From Powellomyces hirtus (lineage: Eukaryota > Chytridiomycota > Chytridiomycetes > Spizellomycetales > Powellomycetaceae), in contig JAHLKG010000020.1 in NCBI GenBank assembly GCA_025526995.1, positions 1-64,000 on the forward strand: 64,000 bases of DNA, read 5' to 3'. Position 1 is the first letter of the stretch; the number at the start of each line of letters is the position of its first letter. The position numbers and the translations under genes are program-made. Shown here piece after piece: positions 39,011 through 58,803 of the stretch. The notes below the pieces were generated by a model. That model saw only the letters and a program-made list of their open reading frames with translations. It was not told the DNA's origin and made no database searches.

Positions 39011-39320
39011 ACTATCAGTGTCTGAGCCGACCATCGGACGCTTTTTGTCCATCAATCTTGTACATGCTTACGATGTCAAATAACAAAATCTGTGATTGAC
39101 GAGTTATGCCGGAGGATTTTGTTGACACTGCTCTTATTAAGATCCTCACTCAGCGGAAGAGACGTTCAGGAATGTTATGAGCTCTTGATTCTTCATCGCA
39201 CATCCAGCTGTATAATATTGCATAATAAGCAGTAACCCCTCGGACTGACTCCCGGCTTCCATATGAAGCTCAAGCTCAACACATGGATGTCGCAGGCTGT
39301 CCAACATTTACCCTGTTAGA
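39011..39320. other. Spacer between PSMA3 and the DLEC1-like gene
   Basis: 310 bases in tandem orientation; contains the PSMA3 3' end and the next promoter. Nothing further seen. Confidence 0.4.
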
Positions 39321-42300
39321 ATGTCCATACTTTACCTAATGCAGAACTCCTGGACGCGCTCGGACGGCTTACGTAACGCTCCGTTGGAACAGGTTCCGCT
39401 GCTTCTTTTCACTCGATCGAAGATTGGGCCATTGCCCGCGCTCGTCAAATGCCTCACAATGTCCGAGCCACAACTACAGCGACCCTCGTCACTAGTTGAG
39501 CTGCCACTTCTAGACGCTAAATCCCGCAGTTCCTCACTCAAATCGCTGCCGATAAGGAACAACAAAGTAGAATTTCTTTCCAAACCCCGAAATAGCATTA
39601 CCGTGTCGTCCCTCCCGCAACTACGCAAAGGTTTACTGGCTGAACGAAAGACTCTCCCGCACGGACAGTCTGTCGGAGCTTTGCATAAACAGGCACCGGA
39701 TACAGCTGAGACTGATCATCTCCGCGGCTTTAGTCGTGAATTCTTGGGCCTTCCGAAAAGACACGGCGCAAACGAAGATGATGAACAAGAAAAGCACGAT
39801 GATGACGTGGATGCAGGGAAAATTAATGCGCAAAGGGAAAATGTACACGCCGAGGAGCCAACTGGGGAGCCGCTTGGCGAGATGGAGGTTCCCATCAGGG
39901 CAGAAGACTGGAATGACCGGGTCGCCATTGTGGATGAAAACGGCGTGGACATGCGTGGCCATTTCTCACAACCAATTCTCCGATACGCCGTCAAGCGTAC
40001 CAACAACAACTTCAAATTTCCATGGGCAGCGACTCGACCCGTAGCGCCGGAACTTCAGGTTCCTGGTGTGCTGGAAATCGACGCAGACATGATTCAAGCT
40101 CCTCCAGGAACGCTGGAGCCAATTCGCAAGTTTCGCCCGGCGTCAGTGAACTCGATGCACATCTACACAGATGAACAAAAGAGAATGCTTGAGCGAATAG
40201 AATCGCGATTCAATTTCAAGCCCAACCCGAGGTTCCCGCACACCAAGACCTTTATGCGCAGACGTGTGAGCTCTGATCCGCATAACCGGTCGATGCCCGA
40301 CATTTTCATCCCGCCTGGAATCGATACCCGCTGGCTGTCCAAGGAAGCCCCAGCTAGATTACACCAGCCAATTGTTTGCCCTTCCAAAGCGGACATATCC
40401 CATGACATCGGGATTATGGCCATTCCCTCGTCAGTGGTATTTACAGATTACGCACCTAACCGCACGTACGAGAAGGAAGTCATTGTGAAAAATATTACGC
40501 AGAACTCTCGTCGATTCCGTTTAAGTGCTCCACCGCCATATACTCACTCGCCGTATTTCACTGTTGCACTAATCTCCGCGCCCGCCGAACATGGAACCAA
40601 TGGTCTCGTTGCACCTGGAATGAGCTTGCGATACAAAGTCACTTTCACGCCCAATTCCCTTGCAAACTTCCGGCAGATATTCATCGTGTCAACAGAAATT
40701 GGGAAGATTTTCGAAGTCCCATTCATTGCGCAGCGCGAGGCACCCAGACTAACTCTACCGGATGTATTGAATTGCGGGCCCAGCAGAGCAGGATATGACA
40801 ATGTCCGCGTGTGGGATTTCAAAAACGAGGGTGGGCCCGGAAGGTTCTTGATTGTGCCGGAGCACCTGAAAGTGGATCCTTACACTGTTTTTGATACCAT
40901 GGAAGAGCGCGAGAAGTACGCGATCGCGTCAAGTCCGCCGTTCGATGTGTTTCCTGCGTTCCTCACCTTGAAGAAAGGCGAGTCGGGGCAGATCGTGGTG
41001 CGTTACTCACCGACGAAACTTCTGGAAGGAGAGGCGTCGAATGCATTGGGCGGGCGCCGGGACGAAGGTATTTTCAAGCTCGTGTGTGACAACTGCACGA
41101 TATCGGATTTCCCCATCGAGGGACTAGCGCAAGACCCGGGCATCCAAATTGCGGGGATCCATGCGCCCGACGGATCTGTCATTGAAGGGCCCGACTTGTC
41201 GACTGTACCAGGATATGACTTCTACGTGCCGTTTGGAAAGCAGAATCCGGGCTCGACGACACTGTACGTTGTCACGATCCGCAATACCTCTTTACTACAG
41301 CTGCCATTCCAATGGACTGTTTGTAACGCCCCCAGCGACAATGATGGCAAGGACCTCGAGAGTCTGCAGAAAAACCCAACGTTCCAGATAATACCATTGC
41401 GTGGATGGCTCCCGCCAAACGCAGATATGAAATTTGAGGTCGCGTTCACGCCAGAGGAGACAAAGTATTTCAACGTGTTCTGCAATCTCAATTTGCTCCA
41501 TAGTGATCGCCGGAATCTGGGAGAGGCTGGCGACGATAAGATCGTCAACAATGCGTACGGATGTGCTTTGTCAATGCGATGCACTGGACAAGGTGTGCCG
41601 TTCCAAGTCAGCATCAGCCCAGATATTCTCATGATCCCAGACGTTCTGCATACGGGCTCCATCTATTCGACCGTGCTGCGAATGTCAAATGAGAGTGTGT
41701 CGGAGGTCGCATTCGAGTGGGATGCGGACGACATCAGCGAGAATACGCTCGACGTTGCCATTTCGCACACATGGGGCAAAATTGAAGCGTGGGCATGTTG
41801 CAAGATCAAGTTGCAGTGCCGTGGGATTTTCCCCGGCATTGTCTGCGGGACTCTCAACTGCAAGATTGCACACGGTCCCGCGATCAGAGTTCCCATAACG
41901 GCAAGAGTCGCTCTTGCACCAGGAGCGCTACGGTTTGACACCAACCTTGTAGATTTCGGGTTGTTGGCGCTTGGGTCCAAAAAAACAGTTCAGGTCCCAC
42001 TCATTAGCAACGCACCAATACCACTCCACTGGAAAGTAAACGGCTTCAAGCGCAATCGCGAAGACGGCACGCGGGACTGCTACATAACATACGAGCCATC
42101 TGAAGGGCTCATCCTCCCAGGCGAATGTCAGAAGTTGGCAATCACTTACGTTCCGGTGTGGTACCAGAGTCTCCGTGCCATCCTCGAGTGTTCGATTGTC
42201 GATAACGCAACTCCCATCAAGCTTAATAAGAGCGAGTCAGACAATGAGGATGAACATGAATTACGGTCCCAGCAGGTTCGCCTAAAAGAACACGTAGCCG

Positions 42301-45164
42301 TTGCAGCTGTTGAAATGAAAGCTGAGGTGCAAACCCCGCGCGCTACTATCATGGATCCCGTGAACGCATTGACATGCTTTCTCAACGTACCGTGCGCGTA
42401 CTATATCGAGATGCGCAACGTCAGCATGCTTCCTGCTGAGTTCCAGTGGCAGAACATAATTTGCGAACAGTACAGCGTGTCATTCTTCCCACGGACTGGA
42501 AACATACCTGGTGGAAAGGTCATTTCCATCAAGGTGCAGTTTGTTGGCCACGTCCATGGCCACTTGGCTGACCTGCTTTTTGCATGCCACATTGTTGGAA
42601 TGGTAGAACATAACGGATATCTTGGAATTAAGCTGTCGGTCAAGGTCTACGGGATTGACATCGAGCTCCGGCTGGAAGAACCTTTGAACATAGATACTAG
42701 CCTCAGGGCGCAACGCGCAGGTTCACCCAAGCCCCATCAGCTCTCACTTGACTTTGGGGAAGAGTGTCCTATCTTCGCGAAACGGCAAGGGACACTCATC
42801 ATCCGCAATCGAACGGCAATTCCCGCGCCTTTCCGGATATACATGGAAAAGTACGAGGCTACGGCTCTAAAAGGCGATGATGAATTACAGGGCGCGAGCG
42901 ATTCTCTAGACGGCGGGGAAGCCATGGAAAAGGCAATGGTTAACGCAGGGACAACTCCCATAGCCAATGCAAATAGTCCGTCAAGGTCATTGCTCCCTCC
43001 AAGTAACATTGAGAAGCTCGGTTTTAGCTCCAAAACGGGCATGCAGTATATTTCTCAAATCAAGGAAGTCCGACGTCTCATCAAGCGAATGCATGCACTT
43101 TTGCGAGAAGGGCGTGGAGCAGCATTCCACTCGTCGCCTTCCAGCAAAACCATTGGGCCATGGGAAACCGTCCGGGTAAACGTAACTTCTTACAACAATC
43201 TTGTCGGTCTGTATGAAGACAATCTGATTTGCGAGGTACGCGGGTGGGAGAGACAGGTAATTCCAATCCGATTGGGTGTCATTGGACTCCCCGTTCGATT
43301 TTTCGGGGCCCATCTGGTCGCAAAACAAAAGGAATCAACGGACACCATCGACCGTGTCAATTTTGGGACACGAATCACAAACCTCACATGGGCAAGCGTC
43401 AACGGGGTACGCGCATACCCGTATCCTCGAAGCGATCGCACAGAAGAGGAGGCGCTGCAGCTGGGCGAGAAGGAAGCACACAGCAAAGTTATTCACATCG
43501 AGAATCAATCCCCGCGAGATATCCGCCTCACGTGGGTGACGTATATCAAGCATACGCCCCTCGGAAGCAGCCCTCCATCAATCGCCGAAATATTAACTCC
43601 TGAAAATCGGCTAGAACAAGATGCGTTAGGAATGTTTGGTGTAATGCCCGCGACAATGGTGCTCCCTGCGTTCAAATCCACTTCCATTCGCATCTTTTTC
43701 CGCAGCGGTATGGTCGGCGCTTTCGATGGCCTGCTCGTCGCAGACGTCGGCTATATACAAAAGGACGGAAAGCCTCTGTACGGACATGGGAGAAAAGAGT
43801 CCACTCGGCGCCCGGGCACTGATGAGGCGTTCCCCGTGTCTCATCTGACATCAATGGCCTGCGTGCATGTGCAAGGACGAGCTATCGAGCCGCGCCTCAG
43901 CCTTGACATTGGGGATCGCATTCGGATGAAAGAGTCGTTTTGGGGCAAGCAAGATGACGGGCCGTCGCTATCAGGCTCGGAAGGCCGGACAGTCAATGTA
44001 TTCTTGGAAAACAACACAGACTCGGTATGCTCGTTCACGATACACGCAACACCGCGCGAACTGTTTACGGTGACGTGCGCGGATGATCCGGCCGAACAAT
44101 CAAAGGACACAGGACAGAAGAAAGTGGCGCATGCATCTGCCAAGGGTGGGCGAAAACAAAGTGGCACGGCACGATCACGGTCAATGAGCCTAGGGAAAAT
44201 CCTCATGGTCTCCGGCAGCTACCTACACGAGTTGAAACCCACAGAACAGATGCTCATTTCTGTACGCTACACTCCGCATCCGCACCCGGCAAAAAGCCAA
44301 GCTGATGCATTGCCAGGACCTGTCACTGACTCCTTTCCGCTTCCGGTAAAGAGTCCCGTGGCGCCTCCTGCCCCATACTCACCTCGCAGCGCTATCTCAT
44401 CAGTCAGCATGGGGTTATTGTCTGCCAAACAAGACGACCAACTGTCGAGTGATGAAGACGCTGAGAACACGCCCAAGGCACCGGCGGATAATGCAGGCAA
44501 ATTTGCGTCAGTCAACGTACCTCCGTCCTTTGAAGCTGCTGGCATTCCAGATTCGCGTGTCGAGGGAAGTGCACAGAGAATCTCACCCGCAGCATCCGTT
44601 GCGTCACTCAAAGGTTCTTCGCTGCCCATCGAAGCGCCTTTTGGAAAAGACCTTTCTGTGCCTGCGACTGAGACGTTGCATGCAGATCCAGGCAGTGCAT
44701 CGGAAGAGTCGCCCTTGAATTCTGCAACTCCTACTGGGAGCCCGGCAGTTGCCCCGCAAGTTCCAGCAGCAACTGTGCCAGGCTCTGAGGTGAATCTCAC
44801 AAGCGCTGGGCCGGCCGCTGCGCACGATGTCGCGAAGCCACTATCCAAACATGGATCCAACGCTTCATTGAAGGGATCTAATCCGTCGCTACGTGCATCA
44901 GTGGTTCTGCCAAAACCGTCCCGCGCGTCCTCCTCGTCCGATAGAACCAAACGCGCAGTAACAAAGAAGCCTGCTGATACTCCGTCGTTGGAAGAAACAC
45001 CGACCTTGCCGTCCCCGCCAGCAGTCGAACTGAAACCAGACATATCGCTAACGACGAGGCCGATGACTGCGCGGTCGCGCATAGTGGCTGAAGGAACGTT
45101 GAATATCTACTTTACGAATGGCATCAAGCAGCAAATCCCGCTCATTGTCGAAGATACAACATAA
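39321..45164 (+). CDS. DLEC1/FAP81-like ciliary protein with multiple ASH/MSP-type domains
   Basis: A single open frame of 1947 codons, no introns. The first ~150 residues are charged and low in structure. From about residue 370 a series of Ig-like ASH/MSP-type beta domains follows, with recurring patterns such as YEKEVIVKNITQNSRRFR, LVAPGMSLRYKVTFTP, PFQWTVCNAP, PNADMKFEVAFTPEE and LILPGECQKLAITYVP. LNCGPSRAGYDNV resembles the DLEC1 block with LDCGP. Chlamydomonas FAP81/DLEC1 and HYDIN-like proteins bind axonemal microtubule structures, so a flagellar role is likely. Near the C-terminus a Ser/Pro/Ala-rich stretch of about 260 residues (44290-45075) interrupts the last beta domain, whose final strands (EGTLNIYFTNGIKQQIPL) come just before the stop. 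The first ATG is used; a Met about 46 codons in (39459) is also possible. HYDIN, CFAP47 or CFAP65 relatives are alternatives. Confidence 0.75.
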   Translation: MSILYLMQNSWTRSDGLRNAPLEQVPLLLFTRSKIGPLPALVKCLTMSEPQLQRPSSLVELPLLDAKSRSSSLKSLPIRNNKVEFLSKPRNSITVSSLPQLRKGLLAERKTLPHGQSVGALHKQAPDTAETDHLRGFSREFLGLPKRHGANEDDEQEKHDDDVDAGKINAQRENVHAEEPTGEPLGEMEVPIRAEDWNDRVAIVDENGVDMRGHFSQPILRYAVKRTNNNFKFPWAATRPVAPELQVPGVLEIDADMIQAPPGTLEPIRKFRPASVNSMHIYTDEQKRMLERIESRFNFKPNPRFPHTKTFMRRRVSSDPHNRSMPDIFIPPGIDTRWLSKEAPARLHQPIVCPSKADISHDIGIMAIPSSVVFTDYAPNRTYEKEVIVKNITQNSRRFRLSAPPPYTHSPYFTVALISAPAEHGTNGLVAPGMSLRYKVTFTPNSLANFRQIFIVSTEIGKIFEVPFIAQREAPRLTLPDVLNCGPSRAGYDNVRVWDFKNEGGPGRFLIVPEHLKVDPYTVFDTMEEREKYAIASSPPFDVFPAFLTLKKGESGQIVVRYSPTKLLEGEASNALGGRRDEGIFKLVCDNCTISDFPIEGLAQDPGIQIAGIHAPDGSVIEGPDLSTVPGYDFYVPFGKQNPGSTTLYVVTIRNTSLLQLPFQWTVCNAPSDNDGKDLESLQKNPTFQIIPLRGWLPPNADMKFEVAFTPEETKYFNVFCNLNLLHSDRRNLGEAGDDKIVNNAYGCALSMRCTGQGVPFQVSISPDILMIPDVLHTGSIYSTVLRMSNESVSEVAFEWDADDISENTLDVAISHTWGKIEAWACCKIKLQCRGIFPGIVCGTLNCKIAHGPAIRVPITARVALAPGALRFDTNLVDFGLLALGSKKTVQVPLISNAPIPLHWKVNGFKRNREDGTRDCYITYEPSEGLILPGECQKLAITYVPVWYQSLRAILECSIVDNATPIKLNKSESDNEDEHELRSQQVRLKEHVAVAAVEMKAEVQTPRATIMDPVNALTCFLNVPCAYYIEMRNVSMLPAEFQWQNIICEQYSVSFFPRTGNIPGGKVISIKVQFVGHVHGHLADLLFACHIVGMVEHNGYLGIKLSVKVYGIDIELRLEEPLNIDTSLRAQRAGSPKPHQLSLDFGEECPIFAKRQGTLIIRNRTAIPAPFRIYMEKYEATALKGDDELQGASDSLDGGEAMEKAMVNAGTTPIANANSPSRSLLPPSNIEKLGFSSKTGMQYISQIKEVRRLIKRMHALLREGRGAAFHSSPSSKTIGPWETVRVNVTSYNNLVGLYEDNLICEVRGWERQVIPIRLGVIGLPVRFFGAHLVAKQKESTDTIDRVNFGTRITNLTWASVNGVRAYPYPRSDRTEEEALQLGEKEAHSKVIHIENQSPRDIRLTWVTYIKHTPLGSSPPSIAEILTPENRLEQDALGMFGVMPATMVLPAFKSTSIRIFFRSGMVGAFDGLLVADVGYIQKDGKPLYGHGRKESTRRPGTDEAFPVSHLTSMACVHVQGRAIEPRLSLDIGDRIRMKESFWGKQDDGPSLSGSEGRTVNVFLENNTDSVCSFTIHATPRELFTVTCADDPAEQSKDTGQKKVAHASAKGGRKQSGTARSRSMSLGKILMVSGSYLHELKPTEQMLISVRYTPHPHPAKSQADALPGPVTDSFPLPVKSPVAPPAPYSPRSAISSVSMGLLSAKQDDQLSSDEDAENTPKAPADNAGKFASVNVPPSFEAAGIPDSRVEGSAQRISPAASVASLKGSSLPIEAPFGKDLSVPATETLHADPGSASEESPLNSATPTGSPAVAPQVPAATVPGSEVNLTSAGPAAAHDVAKPLSKHGSNASLKGSNPSLRASVVLPKPSRASSSSDRTKRAVTKKPADTPSLEETPTLPSPPAVELKPDISLTTRPMTARSRIVAEGTLNIYFTNGIKQQIPLIVEDTT

Positions 45165-48722: not shown

Positions 48723-48807
48723 GCCCTCGTGGCGTAATGGCAGCGCATCCCCCTCCTATAAAAGGGATGAAAGGGGAAGGTTGCAGGTTCAACCCCTGCC
48801 GGGGGTG
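48723..48807 (+). tRNA. tRNA-Arg (anticodon CCT) with a 13-base intron
   Basis: Acceptor GCCCTCG pairs with CGGGGGT (48800-48806), followed by discriminator G. The D arm lies in TGGCGTAATGGCAGCGC. Anticodon stem TCCCC/GGGGA encloses loop CTCCTA...A with anticodon CCT. An intron TAAAAGGGATGAA follows position 37. T arm GCAGG/CCTGC has loop TTCAACC. A-box and B-box promoters fit, and a T8 run about four bases downstream is the Pol III terminator. CCT reads the arginine codon AGG. Confidence 0.88.
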
Positions 48808-49639
48808 CTACGTTTTTTTTCCATCACAGCACACCCCGAACACAGGCTTGAAAGCTTTGGGGATGACTGCGAGACAGCATGAACGTTCGCTGAGCGCACA
48901 TGTTCTACTATGGTCAAAGAAGTCAGTGATGATGATGCCACTATGCACATATCCATGTATGATCATAAGAAAGAAGAACAGGCAATGAATGTGGGACTAT
49001 ATCCATTAACAATAATAAGAGAAACACCTGAACCCATCTTATGCTTGTGTCCTTGACAATGACGGTCTAGACTCTCTGGAAGTGGAAAGTTGAACCTAAA
49101 CGTCGAAACTGAAACTGAAAGGCAAACAAAACAGGCCTACATCTGGGCTGGACAGTGCGTCAATCACCCCTCTCTCTTTCCAATCAACAGATTCACAGGA
49201 TGTGTGTACGAGGGAGGGAGCATGAGAGAGTAGTGAGTGACGGAGCAAAAACGAGAAGGCAACGAACACTGTATGTCGTTGTAAAGTCCATAAAGTCGCG
49301 CGCGGGAGGGACAAACAAGGTTTGAACAAAAATCGTCGCCATTCCCTGGTCTTCATTCCTTTTCACCTTTTGAGTTATTGTTGTTGTTGTTGTTGTCAGA
49401 TCCTCCTTTACCCTGGTCATTTCCCCCGCATTCACTTCCCCCGCATTCACTTTCTGCCCCTCCGCCCGTCCGGCCGCTTCTTCTCCTTCGCCCGCCTCTC
49501 TCTCGCCACCCGCCAACAATACTTGTATATAGAGGTAGCTCCCGTCCGTCGTCCGAATTCATTCTGTCAACTGCCCCAGTCTTCGTCCCGTCCGCACCTC
49601 TCGCCTCCCGCTCGCCTACTGTCCTGCTCTCTCCTGCAA
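48808..49639. other. Spacer upstream of the solute-binding/SH3 gene
   Basis: Contains the tRNA terminator, A-rich stretches, and a GC-rich pyrimidine-rich leader (49390-49639). Within it CCCCGCATTCACTTC occurs twice in tandem (about 49424-49455). No other gene seen. Confidence 0.45.
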
Positions 49640-52600
49640 ATGTCTCGACACCGGTGGAAACGACGTGCTCCTCCCCACCTCTCAACCACATCCACAGCAT
49701 CAACGGCAAACAAGTCAACAAGAACGTTGACAAAACGCCCTCTATCCACGGCGGAAATTGCCTCACCATTGTCACGCTACTCCGACACCGACTGCCCCTC
49801 ACATAGCACTCCTTCCTCACACCATTCACTAGCACATTTCTTGCGGACAAAAATAGATTCCCTCCCTCGACCGCGCGGAAAACCACCACTGCCGTTCCTC
49901 TGGCGGTCACATTTGTCTCGCGTCCTCCGGCGCCTCGTCCTAGCCATCGTCCTGCTCGCATGTCTCTGGGCCCAACCCGCAAAAGCGCAGGATCATAAAA
50001 AAGTCAATGTACTTATGAAGCCGCTGTTTGACGACTCGGCCACCGAAGAGTTGACTCAGTTGAAGGAGCTGACGACCAATTTCGAGGCCCTGACGGGAAT
50101 CTCGATTCAAATGGACCTGGAACCCACAGTGAGTGTTTAGCACGCCGCAGCGATGAAGTCGAGTGATATGAAATATCTACTACGTACAGCACCTCATGTC
50201 CTTCGCCTCTCTTTCTCTTTCGCTTTCCTTTTTTCCAGCAAAACTCCGACGCTTCCGACTATTTCAGTGTTGTAGACCCAATCATGAATTCACAAAGCAC
50301 GAAATACGACATCATTGCCATCGATTCTTCTTGGATATACCAATGGCCAGAAGGCTTTTACGATTTGCTGTTGGACCAGCCAGGTTCCGCTCAGACGGCC
50401 CAAGATATCCGGAACAGGATAAATGAGGAGGATGATCAGAGTGTGAAGGCTGATGCCACAGATGGCGGGAACGTGGGTAAGTGATTTGCCAGAGGTCTCA
50501 GGAACAAGACTGTGCCTGCACGACAGCGGAGAAGTCAAAACTTCTGTGTGGAAATCTTCGTGGGTTCCTTGTTTTGATCTGCATCTCTGGTTCTTCCAGT
50601 TGCCATTCCAATGTGGGCCGACTATTCTGTCGTTTACGGTCGAGCGGATTTACTCGCAAAATACAATATTACTACGATTCCGACCAGCTACCTGGAAATG
50701 AAACAAGCATGTCAAACAGTCCTCACTGGAGAAGGACCGACTCATCGCTCATTGCAGTGTTTTGTCTCCAGCCTCGGCGGTAAGACTCAATTTCCAGATG
50801 ACTCTTCTTGTTGTTCCTGGTTCATGCAACTCAATATTTCCGTGTTGCCCAGATGCCGACGTTGTTGAATTATTCGCTGAATGGATTTACACAAACAATT
50901 CGACTCCACTCATCAAATACCCAAATACGGTTAGCTTTGATACGGAGAGGAACCGTCAGCTTCTGCGCACGTATGCCGATTGGATCAAGACGGGCAATTT
51001 CATTTCCGACCGGGCGTTGCAATATGACAGTAAGAGTGCCCTGAGCACATGGTTATTGGGTGATGCCTTGTTCTACCGGGGCAAAGCGTCACATGCCTTG
51101 AAGACGTACAAAACGTGGGCGAACAAAGCACCATGGGCCCCCGTGGTCATATCGGGAAACAATCCCGCGGCAGTGAGTCCTATCGTCTCGGTCGTAGGCG
51201 GTTACCATCTCGCTATGCCAAAGTTTGGTGGAAACAAGAATGATACGATGGTCGCGATGGCGCTGTTGTTCTTGACCAGCGCGCCTGTGCAAAAGGCGAG
51301 AGCGCTCAGATTTGGCGCCATTCCCACTTTGACTCAATTGACCAATGGTAAAATATTCCACCCAATACGTCTTGAAAAGCACCGATGAAGTTTACACCGA
51401 GCACTATAATGATTCCCGCATCCTCTTTCGAGCAACCCATCTCATGCTTTCTTTCTTCTTCGGGCAGATCCCGAGACGTGTACTGCGGTAAACTGCTCCA
51501 GAATAGCCAATCTAGCCCCATACGACCTTCCCTCGGAGGCGGCGGCACCGTTCTGGGTCCAAGCTGTAGATGCCATGTCACCCTATTTTACGGGGATCTT
51601 GAACGGCACGTACGACGCAGGAACGGGGCTGGGACAAGCCTCTGCTGCCGTGCAACGGGCCTTCATTGCTGCTGCGCAAAAGCCGACCGAATCCGGCGCC
51701 CTGAGTACCACCGCCGTCATCCTCTTGGCGGTGTTGGTCCCCATGGCCGTGGTCGCCTTGTTGCTCTGTGCGGGATTGTGGTGGAAGAGCCAGCGGTCCA
51801 CCAAAGCGGCCGTTTTGGCCCGGCAAGAAGAGATTACGGTCGGCTCGGCCGCCACGGGAACGCGGGAAACGACCAGAGTACCGTCCATGGCGGAACGAAA
51901 AGACCATGGCGTTGTCAACCTCTCCATCCGACCCGCCCGCCGTCCCGACGCATCCAACGCCGCCGACATCCAGCGCGTGGTCGGCACGGGCGCCGCAGCA
52001 GGGAGCGTCAAGAATGCTGGCCCCAACACACCCACCCCGAGCGGCCTCACCGCCCACGACGGCGACGCCACAGCATCGGGCTACGCAGCAGGACCCGGAA
52101 CCGCAAGCGAATACCGCGACCGCAACAGCACCGACGTACCGGACTCCCAGTACCCGCATCGATCCCCGCGCAGCCGCACCTCGTCGGGCGACTACCCCTA
52201 CATCTCCCAACGCTTCACGGTCATCCACGCCTACAAACCCGCAGTAGGCGACGAACTTGAAATCCGCCCCGGTGACGTGGTTTCGGTTCGACTCGCCTAC
52301 GACGACGGCTACGCGTTTGGCCACAATGAAATGACTGCCACGGCCGGGGTCTTCCCCCTCGCGTGCCTTCTGCCCGTAGGAATGGAGGTCGGCCTCCCCT
52401 CCCGCCTCGAATCGGGCGCGTCAAATTTCAACGCGATGCAGCATGCGAGCGAAAAAGTCGATTCGCTCGAAATGCTCCTCCTCTCGGGGAGAATCACCGA
52501 ACAGACCTATCTGTCGCTGCGAAGGGAACAGGAAGAGGAACTGAGAACGCAGCGCCAGATTACGGCACTCAGGGAACGACTTGCCCAGCCCAACCTCGAA

Positions 52601-52657
52601 GACGCGGAACGCAGGAAATTGCAGAATCGATTGGATGAGCTCGAATTGGGAATTTGA
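49640..52657 (+). CDS. Receptor-like protein: bacterial-type solute-binding ectodomain, one TM helix, cytoplasmic SH3 and coiled coil
   Basis: Five exons: 49640-50128, 50239-50476, 50600-50779, 50853-51347, 51468-52657; 700 residues, phases consistent. Residues ~95-116 form a late signal sequence or anchor (VLRRLVLAIVLLACLWA, then AKA). Residues ~120-375 look like a periplasmic-binding-protein type II (SBP_bac_1, sugar-type) fold: NVLMKPLFDD, FEALTGISIQMDL, KYDIIAIDSSWIYQW, IPMWADYSVVYGRADLLAKY, and LRFGAIPTLTQL near its end. A membrane helix follows at ~386-411 (AVILLAVLVPMAVVALLLC). The cytoplasmic part is low-complexity to ~550, then an SH3 domain at ~553-610 (FTVIHAYKPAVGDELEI, DDGYAFGHNE, GVFPLACLLP), then a coiled coil to the end. 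No kinase or transporter domain is attached. A sensor role for an external small molecule, signalling through SH3 partners, is inference. Confidence 0.82.
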
Positions 52658-58056: not shown

Positions 58057-58275
58057 ATGCGGCGTAGGATTGGTGCGTATGTAGCATAGGTAGCACATCA
58101 TTTTCATATAGGACAATATTTTTCAGGCCATCTGCTGAAATACATCATTTTCTTGCATCGAACATGAACAATCAAGATATCATTAGAGCACTCATTACTT
58201 GTCACAGCACACTGGTAGCGCAAGACATAGACATATCCTTGTCGCAAGCAATACGAGAGCCCATCGCTCATCCAT

Positions 58276-58348
58276 GCGAGATTGGCTCAGTTGGCAGAGC
58301 GTGAGTCTCATAATCTCAAGGTCGGGAGTTCGATCCTCCCATCTCGCA
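58276..58348 (+). tRNA. Elongator tRNA-Met (anticodon CAT)
   Basis: Acceptor GCGAGAT/ATCTCGC, D arm GCTC/GAGC, anticodon loop CTCATAA (CAT) in a TGAGT/TCTCA stem with the T-T pair also seen in yeast elongator tRNA-Met, T arm GGGAG/CTCCC with loop TTCGATC. No intron. Discriminator A, followed by AAAACT rather than a strong T run; TTTTT occurs about 10 bases later in interrupted form. Confidence 0.92.
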
Positions 58349-58803
58349 AAACTATCGTTTTTGCCGAAATTTGGGTTATGGGGGTATGTTGGCGCTGCTT
58401 TGGGATGTCCTGAATCCCAGTTTTGCTCACGCGTAACGCCAGATTTCACGCAGGTGCTCGATCAAGCGACATACCAATATACTGAATACAATGAGGCTAT
58501 ACATGTGGCACAGGGCAGGGAGTGGGCGGGGATATATACAGATGGGTGCCCGTCAGGAACGATTGAAAACTCGCGATGATATCCATGTTTTGCTATCATT
58601 TGTGCGCTGCGAATGTCGTTTTTTTTGTTTTTTTTTTTTGTTGTGTGTGTCGTGAGATGAATTCAATTCAATATCGTCTAAAATCAAAAACGCTCTGCAG
58701 CTCGCTGACGGTCAACCAGACCCATTCCTAATGCAAAAATAAATAAAGAGAAAAATGCGCGGGATGGGTTATTTTCACCATTCACTGTTGTTCGTGCCAA
58801 ATC
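58349..58803. other. Spacer between tRNA-Met and the seven-helix protein gene
   Basis: Contains T-rich runs at 58619-58640 and an AATAAATAAA stretch at 58738-58747. A 126-codon plus frame overlapping the tRNA is a shadow. No gene recognised. Confidence 0.4.

Follow-up and report, generated by a model that had tools for sequence, protein, structure and literature searches.

The stretch analysed here (the window) comprises 64,000 nucleotides of Powellomyces hirtus DNA (contig JAHLKG010000020.1, positions 1 to 64,000) and contains a gene whose product is a single polypeptide with a Venus flytrap ectodomain of the bacterial solute-binding protein (SBP) type, a membrane helix, an SH3 fold and a helical tail. 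P. hirtus, a chytrid, belongs to the Spizellomycetales, and the genome searched consisted of 29.3 Mb in 60 contigs. Sequence comparisons and structural models make it fairly probable that the protein is a type I single-pass receptor, with the SBP clamp outside and an SH3-tail signalling module inside the cell. Such a receptor would probably be used to sense a sugar-like signal. To our knowledge, the molecular basis of sugar or solute sensing in zoosporic fungi is poorly known. The gene is conserved and apparently single-copy in the P. hirtus genome, and with a clamp whose ligand is measurable in vitro and a compact SH3-tail suited to partner pull-downs the receptor makes sensing directly testable.

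One gene for ectodomain, membrane helix and SH3 domain

According to the splice model, the gene has five exons on the + strand (positions 49640-52657) and codes for 863 amino acids with a single terminal stop (Table 1). All introns have the form GT...AG, their lengths being 110, 123, 73 and 120 bases. With residues 100-863 as query, the protein PhCBS80983_g04553 recorded for P. hirtus (P0001, 738 residues) matched over 97% of that region at 99% identity, and its splicing was the same as that of the model over the 738 residues of P0001. It begins 125 residues downstream of the model start, at an internal Met, and has no leader. The five exons described in an earlier note on this DNA were reproduced.

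Table 1. Exons and protein features of the P. hirtus gene (window coordinates)
Feature	Position	Strand	Basis
Exon 1: N-terminal extension, hydrophobic residues 92-110, first part of binding domain	49640..50128	+	splice model, hydropathy
Exon 2: binding domain	50239..50476	+	splice model, homologue match
Exon 3: binding domain including W248-A-D250 (D250 = Thermus D118)	50600..50779	+	splice model, profile, alignment
Exon 4: binding domain including G-Y420-H421 (Y420 = Thermus W287)	50853..51347	+	splice model, profile, alignment
Exon 5: end of binding domain, membrane helix, linker, SH3, tail, stop; single frame	51468..52657	+	open reading frame, splice model
Hydrophobic segment (residues 92-110), then AKA-QD; likely cleaved signal peptide, could be uncleaved anchor	49913..49969	+	hydropathy 1.82; cleavage site by eye
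Membrane helix, residues 550-568	51713..51769	+	hydropathy 3.07; helix in homologue model
Probably disordered cytoplasmic linker containing PARR (623) and RSRTSS (702)	51770..52210	+	homologue model, predicted local distance difference test (pLDDT) about 30; motif scan
SH3 domain, residues 716-770	52211..52375	+	Pfam, fold match, predicted structure
Conserved helical tail, residues 796-863 (68 residues), no Pfam family at cut-off	52451..52654	+	alignment, predicted structure

Exon 5 lies within one open frame of 414 amino acids, stop to stop. Everything from the last part of the binding domain to the tail, membrane helix and SH3 domain included, is read in this frame, so the link between ectodomain and SH3 domain is independent of splice prediction. 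A wrong joining of two genes is extremely improbable. It found no support in the window gene (N-ends that look misjoined were seen in the homologue records P0002, with CorA, and P0013, with an amidase), and against it stand the single frame of exon 5 and the identical domain order in 16 homologues (11 named genera, plus two records for which no genus is given). The architecture is shared by other chytrids; the earlier note had suggested looking for it in zoosporic fungi. The combination that the note had claimed, an SBP-like ectodomain, one membrane helix and an SH3 domain in one protein, was confirmed by the splice model, the profile and the structure matches.

At least 20 homologues were obtained, 15 in a first and 5 in a further search; the set is the yield of short-word searches and represents a lower bound. 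They belong to Spizellomycetales (Powellomyces, Thoreauomyces, Geranomyces, Fimicolochytrium, Spizellomyces, Gaertneriomyces), Rhizophlyctidales (Rhizophlyctis, Borealophlyctis) and Chytridiales (Dinochytrium, Irineochytrium, Phlyctochytrium and one further Chytridiales strain), plus Blyttiomyces, for which no order was given. All taxonomically placed homologues are Chytridiomycetes; P0014 is one more protein of the set.

The membrane helix is the strongest hydrophobic segment of the protein and the only one C-terminal to the ectodomain; no 7tm_3 match was found in the window protein. A strong hydrophobic segment N-terminal to the SH3 domain was present in 21 of 21 sequences (the window protein and 20 homologues). 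The long linker following it is probably disordered, as judged from the model of a homologue. Its PARR-like and RSRxSS motifs were common among the Spizellomycetales and Rhizophlyctidales rows of the alignment, without being universal.

Fold, ligand-site residues and origin of the ectodomain

In single-sequence searches the ectodomain matched entries of the Thermus thermophilus alpha-glycoside-binding protein (PDB 6j9w and mutants; best E 4.3e-14, residues 234-472) and the Thermococcus trehalose/maltose-binding protein (1eu8; E 5.8e-10, residues 138-525), which are the nearest solved folds. A family profile matched the SBP fold with an E of about 1e-37 over profile positions 36-425. SBP_bac_1 was matched by 11 of 15 homologues and SBP_bac_8 by four of 15 (E <= 1), the best E being 4.9e-17; the SBP_bac_1 search of the P. 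hirtus genome missed the window gene. The two-lobed SBP fold (sugar-type, SBP_bac_1/8, PBP-like II) is present across the whole binding domain. The earlier note had placed such a domain at residues 120-375; its presence was verified, but its real span is larger, from about residue 119 to 545. By analogy with the nearest folds, the ligand is likely to be of the sugar type.

Key residues of the Thermus protein were taken from the titles of the mutant structures R49A, D118A, W287A/F and R356A, and the corresponding positions were read in an alignment of 16 of the 20 homologues (P0002, P0009, P0013 and P0016, which are fused or partial, were excluded). The equivalent of D118 was Asp in all 16. The W287 position was occupied by Tyr or Phe in 15, and by Thr in P0014; it is directly followed by a His that was invariant in the 16 homologues and is family-specific. 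The equivalent of W73 was invariant or chemically retained in 16/16. D70, implicated in domain closure of the Thermus protein (PMC7949145), had an Asp or Glu counterpart in every one of the 16.

At least three P. hirtus loci carry type II SBP domains, those detected being the window gene, L040 (contig C2) and L041 (contig C7). L040 (G000:C2:49500-58500) has an SBP domain at about 52.5-53.9 kb joined to a seven-transmembrane (7TM) domain (7tm_3, E 1.2e-36) at about 54.0-54.8 kb. It is a class C G protein-coupled receptor (GPCR) with a bacterial-type SBP ectodomain, in which the GGW found in the ligand site of the Thermus protein is retained. L041 (G000:C7:947500-956500) encodes, at about 950.2-952.1 kb, an SBP domain, a single membrane segment and a short tail that lacks an SH3 domain. 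PF00003 gave 26 matches at about 13 places in the genome, indicating that class C GPCR genes are fairly numerous there.

With the ectodomain of P0018, tblastn against plasmids returned 266 records (24.8-28.8% identity among the 15 matches listed), and a scan of genome contigs with the ectodomain detected 7 bacterial loci with 23-39% identity. A profile search of proteins yielded only 7 already known members among 7999 scored candidates. A midpoint-rooted tree was built from 17 family rows (the window protein and the 16 homologues of the ligand-site alignment), 11 of 13 bacterial loci (L048 and L050 were excluded), the Thermus protein, L040 and L041. The bacteria were chosen by likeness to the SH3 family, the eukaryotes were chytrids only, and the rows for L040 and L041 are approximations. 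The SH3 family formed one clade (support 100/100), which clustered with L040 and L041 (99/98), separate from the sampled bacteria. The pairing of L040 and L041 was not firm (57/14), and four rows, including L041, were flagged as long branches. The tree suggests one transfer of the SBP domain into fungi.

In contrast to the Thermus and Thermococcus proteins, the chytrid clamp is fused to a membrane helix and an SH3 domain, and no ABC (ATP-binding cassette) importer permease scored over the cut-off. PF00528 had one match of 20.8 bits (cut-off 26.4) in the genome, while 14 of 14 controls scored above; the search was made exon by exon in an intron-bearing genome, which makes this negative a weak one. 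It weakly supports the statement of the earlier note that no transporter is attached, and the protein probably does not belong to an ABC importer.

The SH3-tail module and the receptor reading

The structure of the C-terminal 158 residues, translated from the window DNA, was predicted with 19 aligned rows. The pLDDT was about 90 for the SH3 domain and 83-91 in most blocks of the tail helices. The SH3 fold is present, with POSH, FUT8, JIP1 and Src-type domains as structure matches. SH3_9 was matched by 15 of 15 homologues at E <= 1, and 18 of 20 carried a precomputed PF14604 assignment (P0001 and P0015 did not). The tail was nearly invariant among the homologues. SH3 domain and tail together were more conserved than the ectodomain, which drifts faster. 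In the P. hirtus genome two weak matches extended into the tail, one as far as residue 112 and the other as far as residue 126 of the query, which had 158 residues.

In the receptor proposed here, a small carbohydrate or similar solute would bind between the lobes on the extracellular side, and the bound clamp would close. Closure, or clustering of receptors, could be transmitted via the membrane helix, whereupon the SH3 domain and tail may bind or release a cytoplasmic partner or engage another receptor. It might act in the zoospore or in the growing thallus; a nutrient or host sensor of the zoospore, as suggested in the earlier note, would be one possible role.

Against the domain assignments stands the result for the window protein alone, which matched none of the SBP models of Pfam at E <= 10 and whose 23.2 bits for SH3_9 were below the Pfam cut-off of 30. 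Other observations weigh against the receptor. The start codon is uncertain, several homologue records beginning later or with shorter leaders, and if residues 92-110 were uncleaved the protein would have two membrane segments. In the ligand site, the R49 equivalent was Tyr or Phe in all 16 homologues and Arg in none, and R356 was retained in only two (P0017 and P0019; alignment read by eye), so that most of the chytrid family differs from the Thermus protein at both arginines as well as at W287. Since R49 and R356 are mostly replaced, binding could be altered or lost. Loss would leave a degenerate clamp without a small ligand, serving in adhesion or in contacts between proteins, for which the faster evolution of the ectodomain can also be adduced. 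We consider this quite improbable, because all 16 homologues have the same or chemically similar residues at the D118, D70 and W73 equivalents and at the family-specific His. With the D118, D70 and aromatic W287 positions kept and the two arginines changed, we infer a working clamp with a changed specificity, whose ligand is probably a different one than in Thermus.

A further point against the receptor concerns the SH3 pocket. A conserved pocket tryptophan is a feature of SH3 domains with a canonical PxxP pocket. At what we take to be this position the window protein has a tyrosine (Tyr749), as do 20 of 20 homologues. Among other P. hirtus SH3 domains with a residue at this position, 16 of 17 had Trp and one had Met; this count was made with the profile of the present family on 36 loci and is biased to similar SH3s, the strongest ordinary ones being hardly included. 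The last pocket position is Cys in the window SH3, as in L011, L012, L014, L019 and L026. Because Cys is common to other SH3s of the genome, the Trp change alone marks this family. The sequence of the pocket indicates that the domain probably does not use the ordinary PxxP pocket, which weakens the suggestion of the earlier note that signalling goes through ordinary SH3 partners.

The same substitution, together with the helical tail and with SH3 fold matches that include FUT8 and JIP1/IB1 entries titled as dimerising, speaks for self-association of the SH3 domain, giving a receptor dimer or cluster, rather than peptide binding. POSH and Src-type SH3s scored about equally, however, which makes the fold ranking uninformative. 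Self-association appears somewhat doubtful; being a variant of the receptor reading, its likelihood overlaps with that of the latter.

Twenty-two non-window SH3 matches in the P. hirtus genome were reduced to 18 loci that were read (L024, a likely twin of L023, was omitted and three others were not included). Ten of the 18 had a membrane segment in frame upstream of the SH3 domain, so SH3-tailed membrane proteins look common in P. hirtus. These frames (L011-L014, L016, L020, L022 and L026-L028) varied in their N-terminal parts, and L025 had several membrane segments upstream of its SH3. The abundance of such loci would also fit a surface sugar catcher or wall tether, whose ectodomain would retain sugars or wall glycans while the SH3-tail anchors the protein to the cortex or the polarity machinery; the gut-fungal SBP proteins have been proposed as potential sugar sequesters (PMC5168858). 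This alternative seems unlikely, as the C-terminal module is conserved above the ectodomain, beyond the apparent need of a mere anchor, and the closure residues are retained.

For the tail, the spacing G-x-I-T-x-x-x-Y seemed to us to resemble that of the SHOCT domain, a reading that was dropped when none of four tails matched PF09851 at E <= 10. SHOCT gave 0 matches in the P. hirtus genome, with 11 of 14 controls detected, 4 of them over the cut-off (on the domain, see PMC3581485). The NCBIfam search with four family members gave nothing over the cut-off.

Related receptors and other features of the window

Fungal class C GPCRs that carry SBP domains, and SBP proteins that have membrane helices, are described in the available portions of PMC3251606 and PMC5168858, and SBP-7tm_3 proteins of Plasmodiophora in that of PMC4815078. 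In these GPCRs, as in the window protein, a bacterial-type SBP is placed on a eukaryotic membrane receptor; as far as these portions go, however, they have seven membrane helices and no SH3 is described, whereas the window protein has one helix. The gut-fungal proteins of PMC5168858 combine, according to the same portion, a sugar-type SBP of type II with at least one membrane helix, an arrangement similar to L041. The term 'sh3' occurs 0 times in the main text of that paper as available, in which a role of SBPs in directing zoospores is speculated on. No paper on an SBP combined with an SH3 domain was found in the searched literature, outside which many subscription papers lie. Since SBP-GPCRs and membrane SBPs are published and the combination with SH3 was not found, the clamp is a known one and its output module is undescribed in the searched literature.

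A chytrid receptor class parallel to the SBP-class C GPCRs can be proposed tentatively. One clamp lineage would have three outputs in the P. hirtus genome (7TM, bare membrane helix and SH3), and the SH3 form would be a chemoreceptor with a non-standard pocket and its own helical tail. If true, bacterial-type clamps have been coupled to eukaryotic signalling by more than the published GPCR route. Fus1 and Sho1 are fungal membrane proteins that resemble the P. hirtus protein in having a cytoplasmic SH3 domain but are not known to carry an SBP ectodomain.

Elsewhere in the window, a tRNA-Ile gene (anticodon TAT, 86 bases) lies at 48723-48808 and a tRNA-Met gene (CAT) at 58275-58349. An open frame of 1965 amino acids at 39267-45164 is reminiscent of flagellar proteins of the HYDIN/MSP type.
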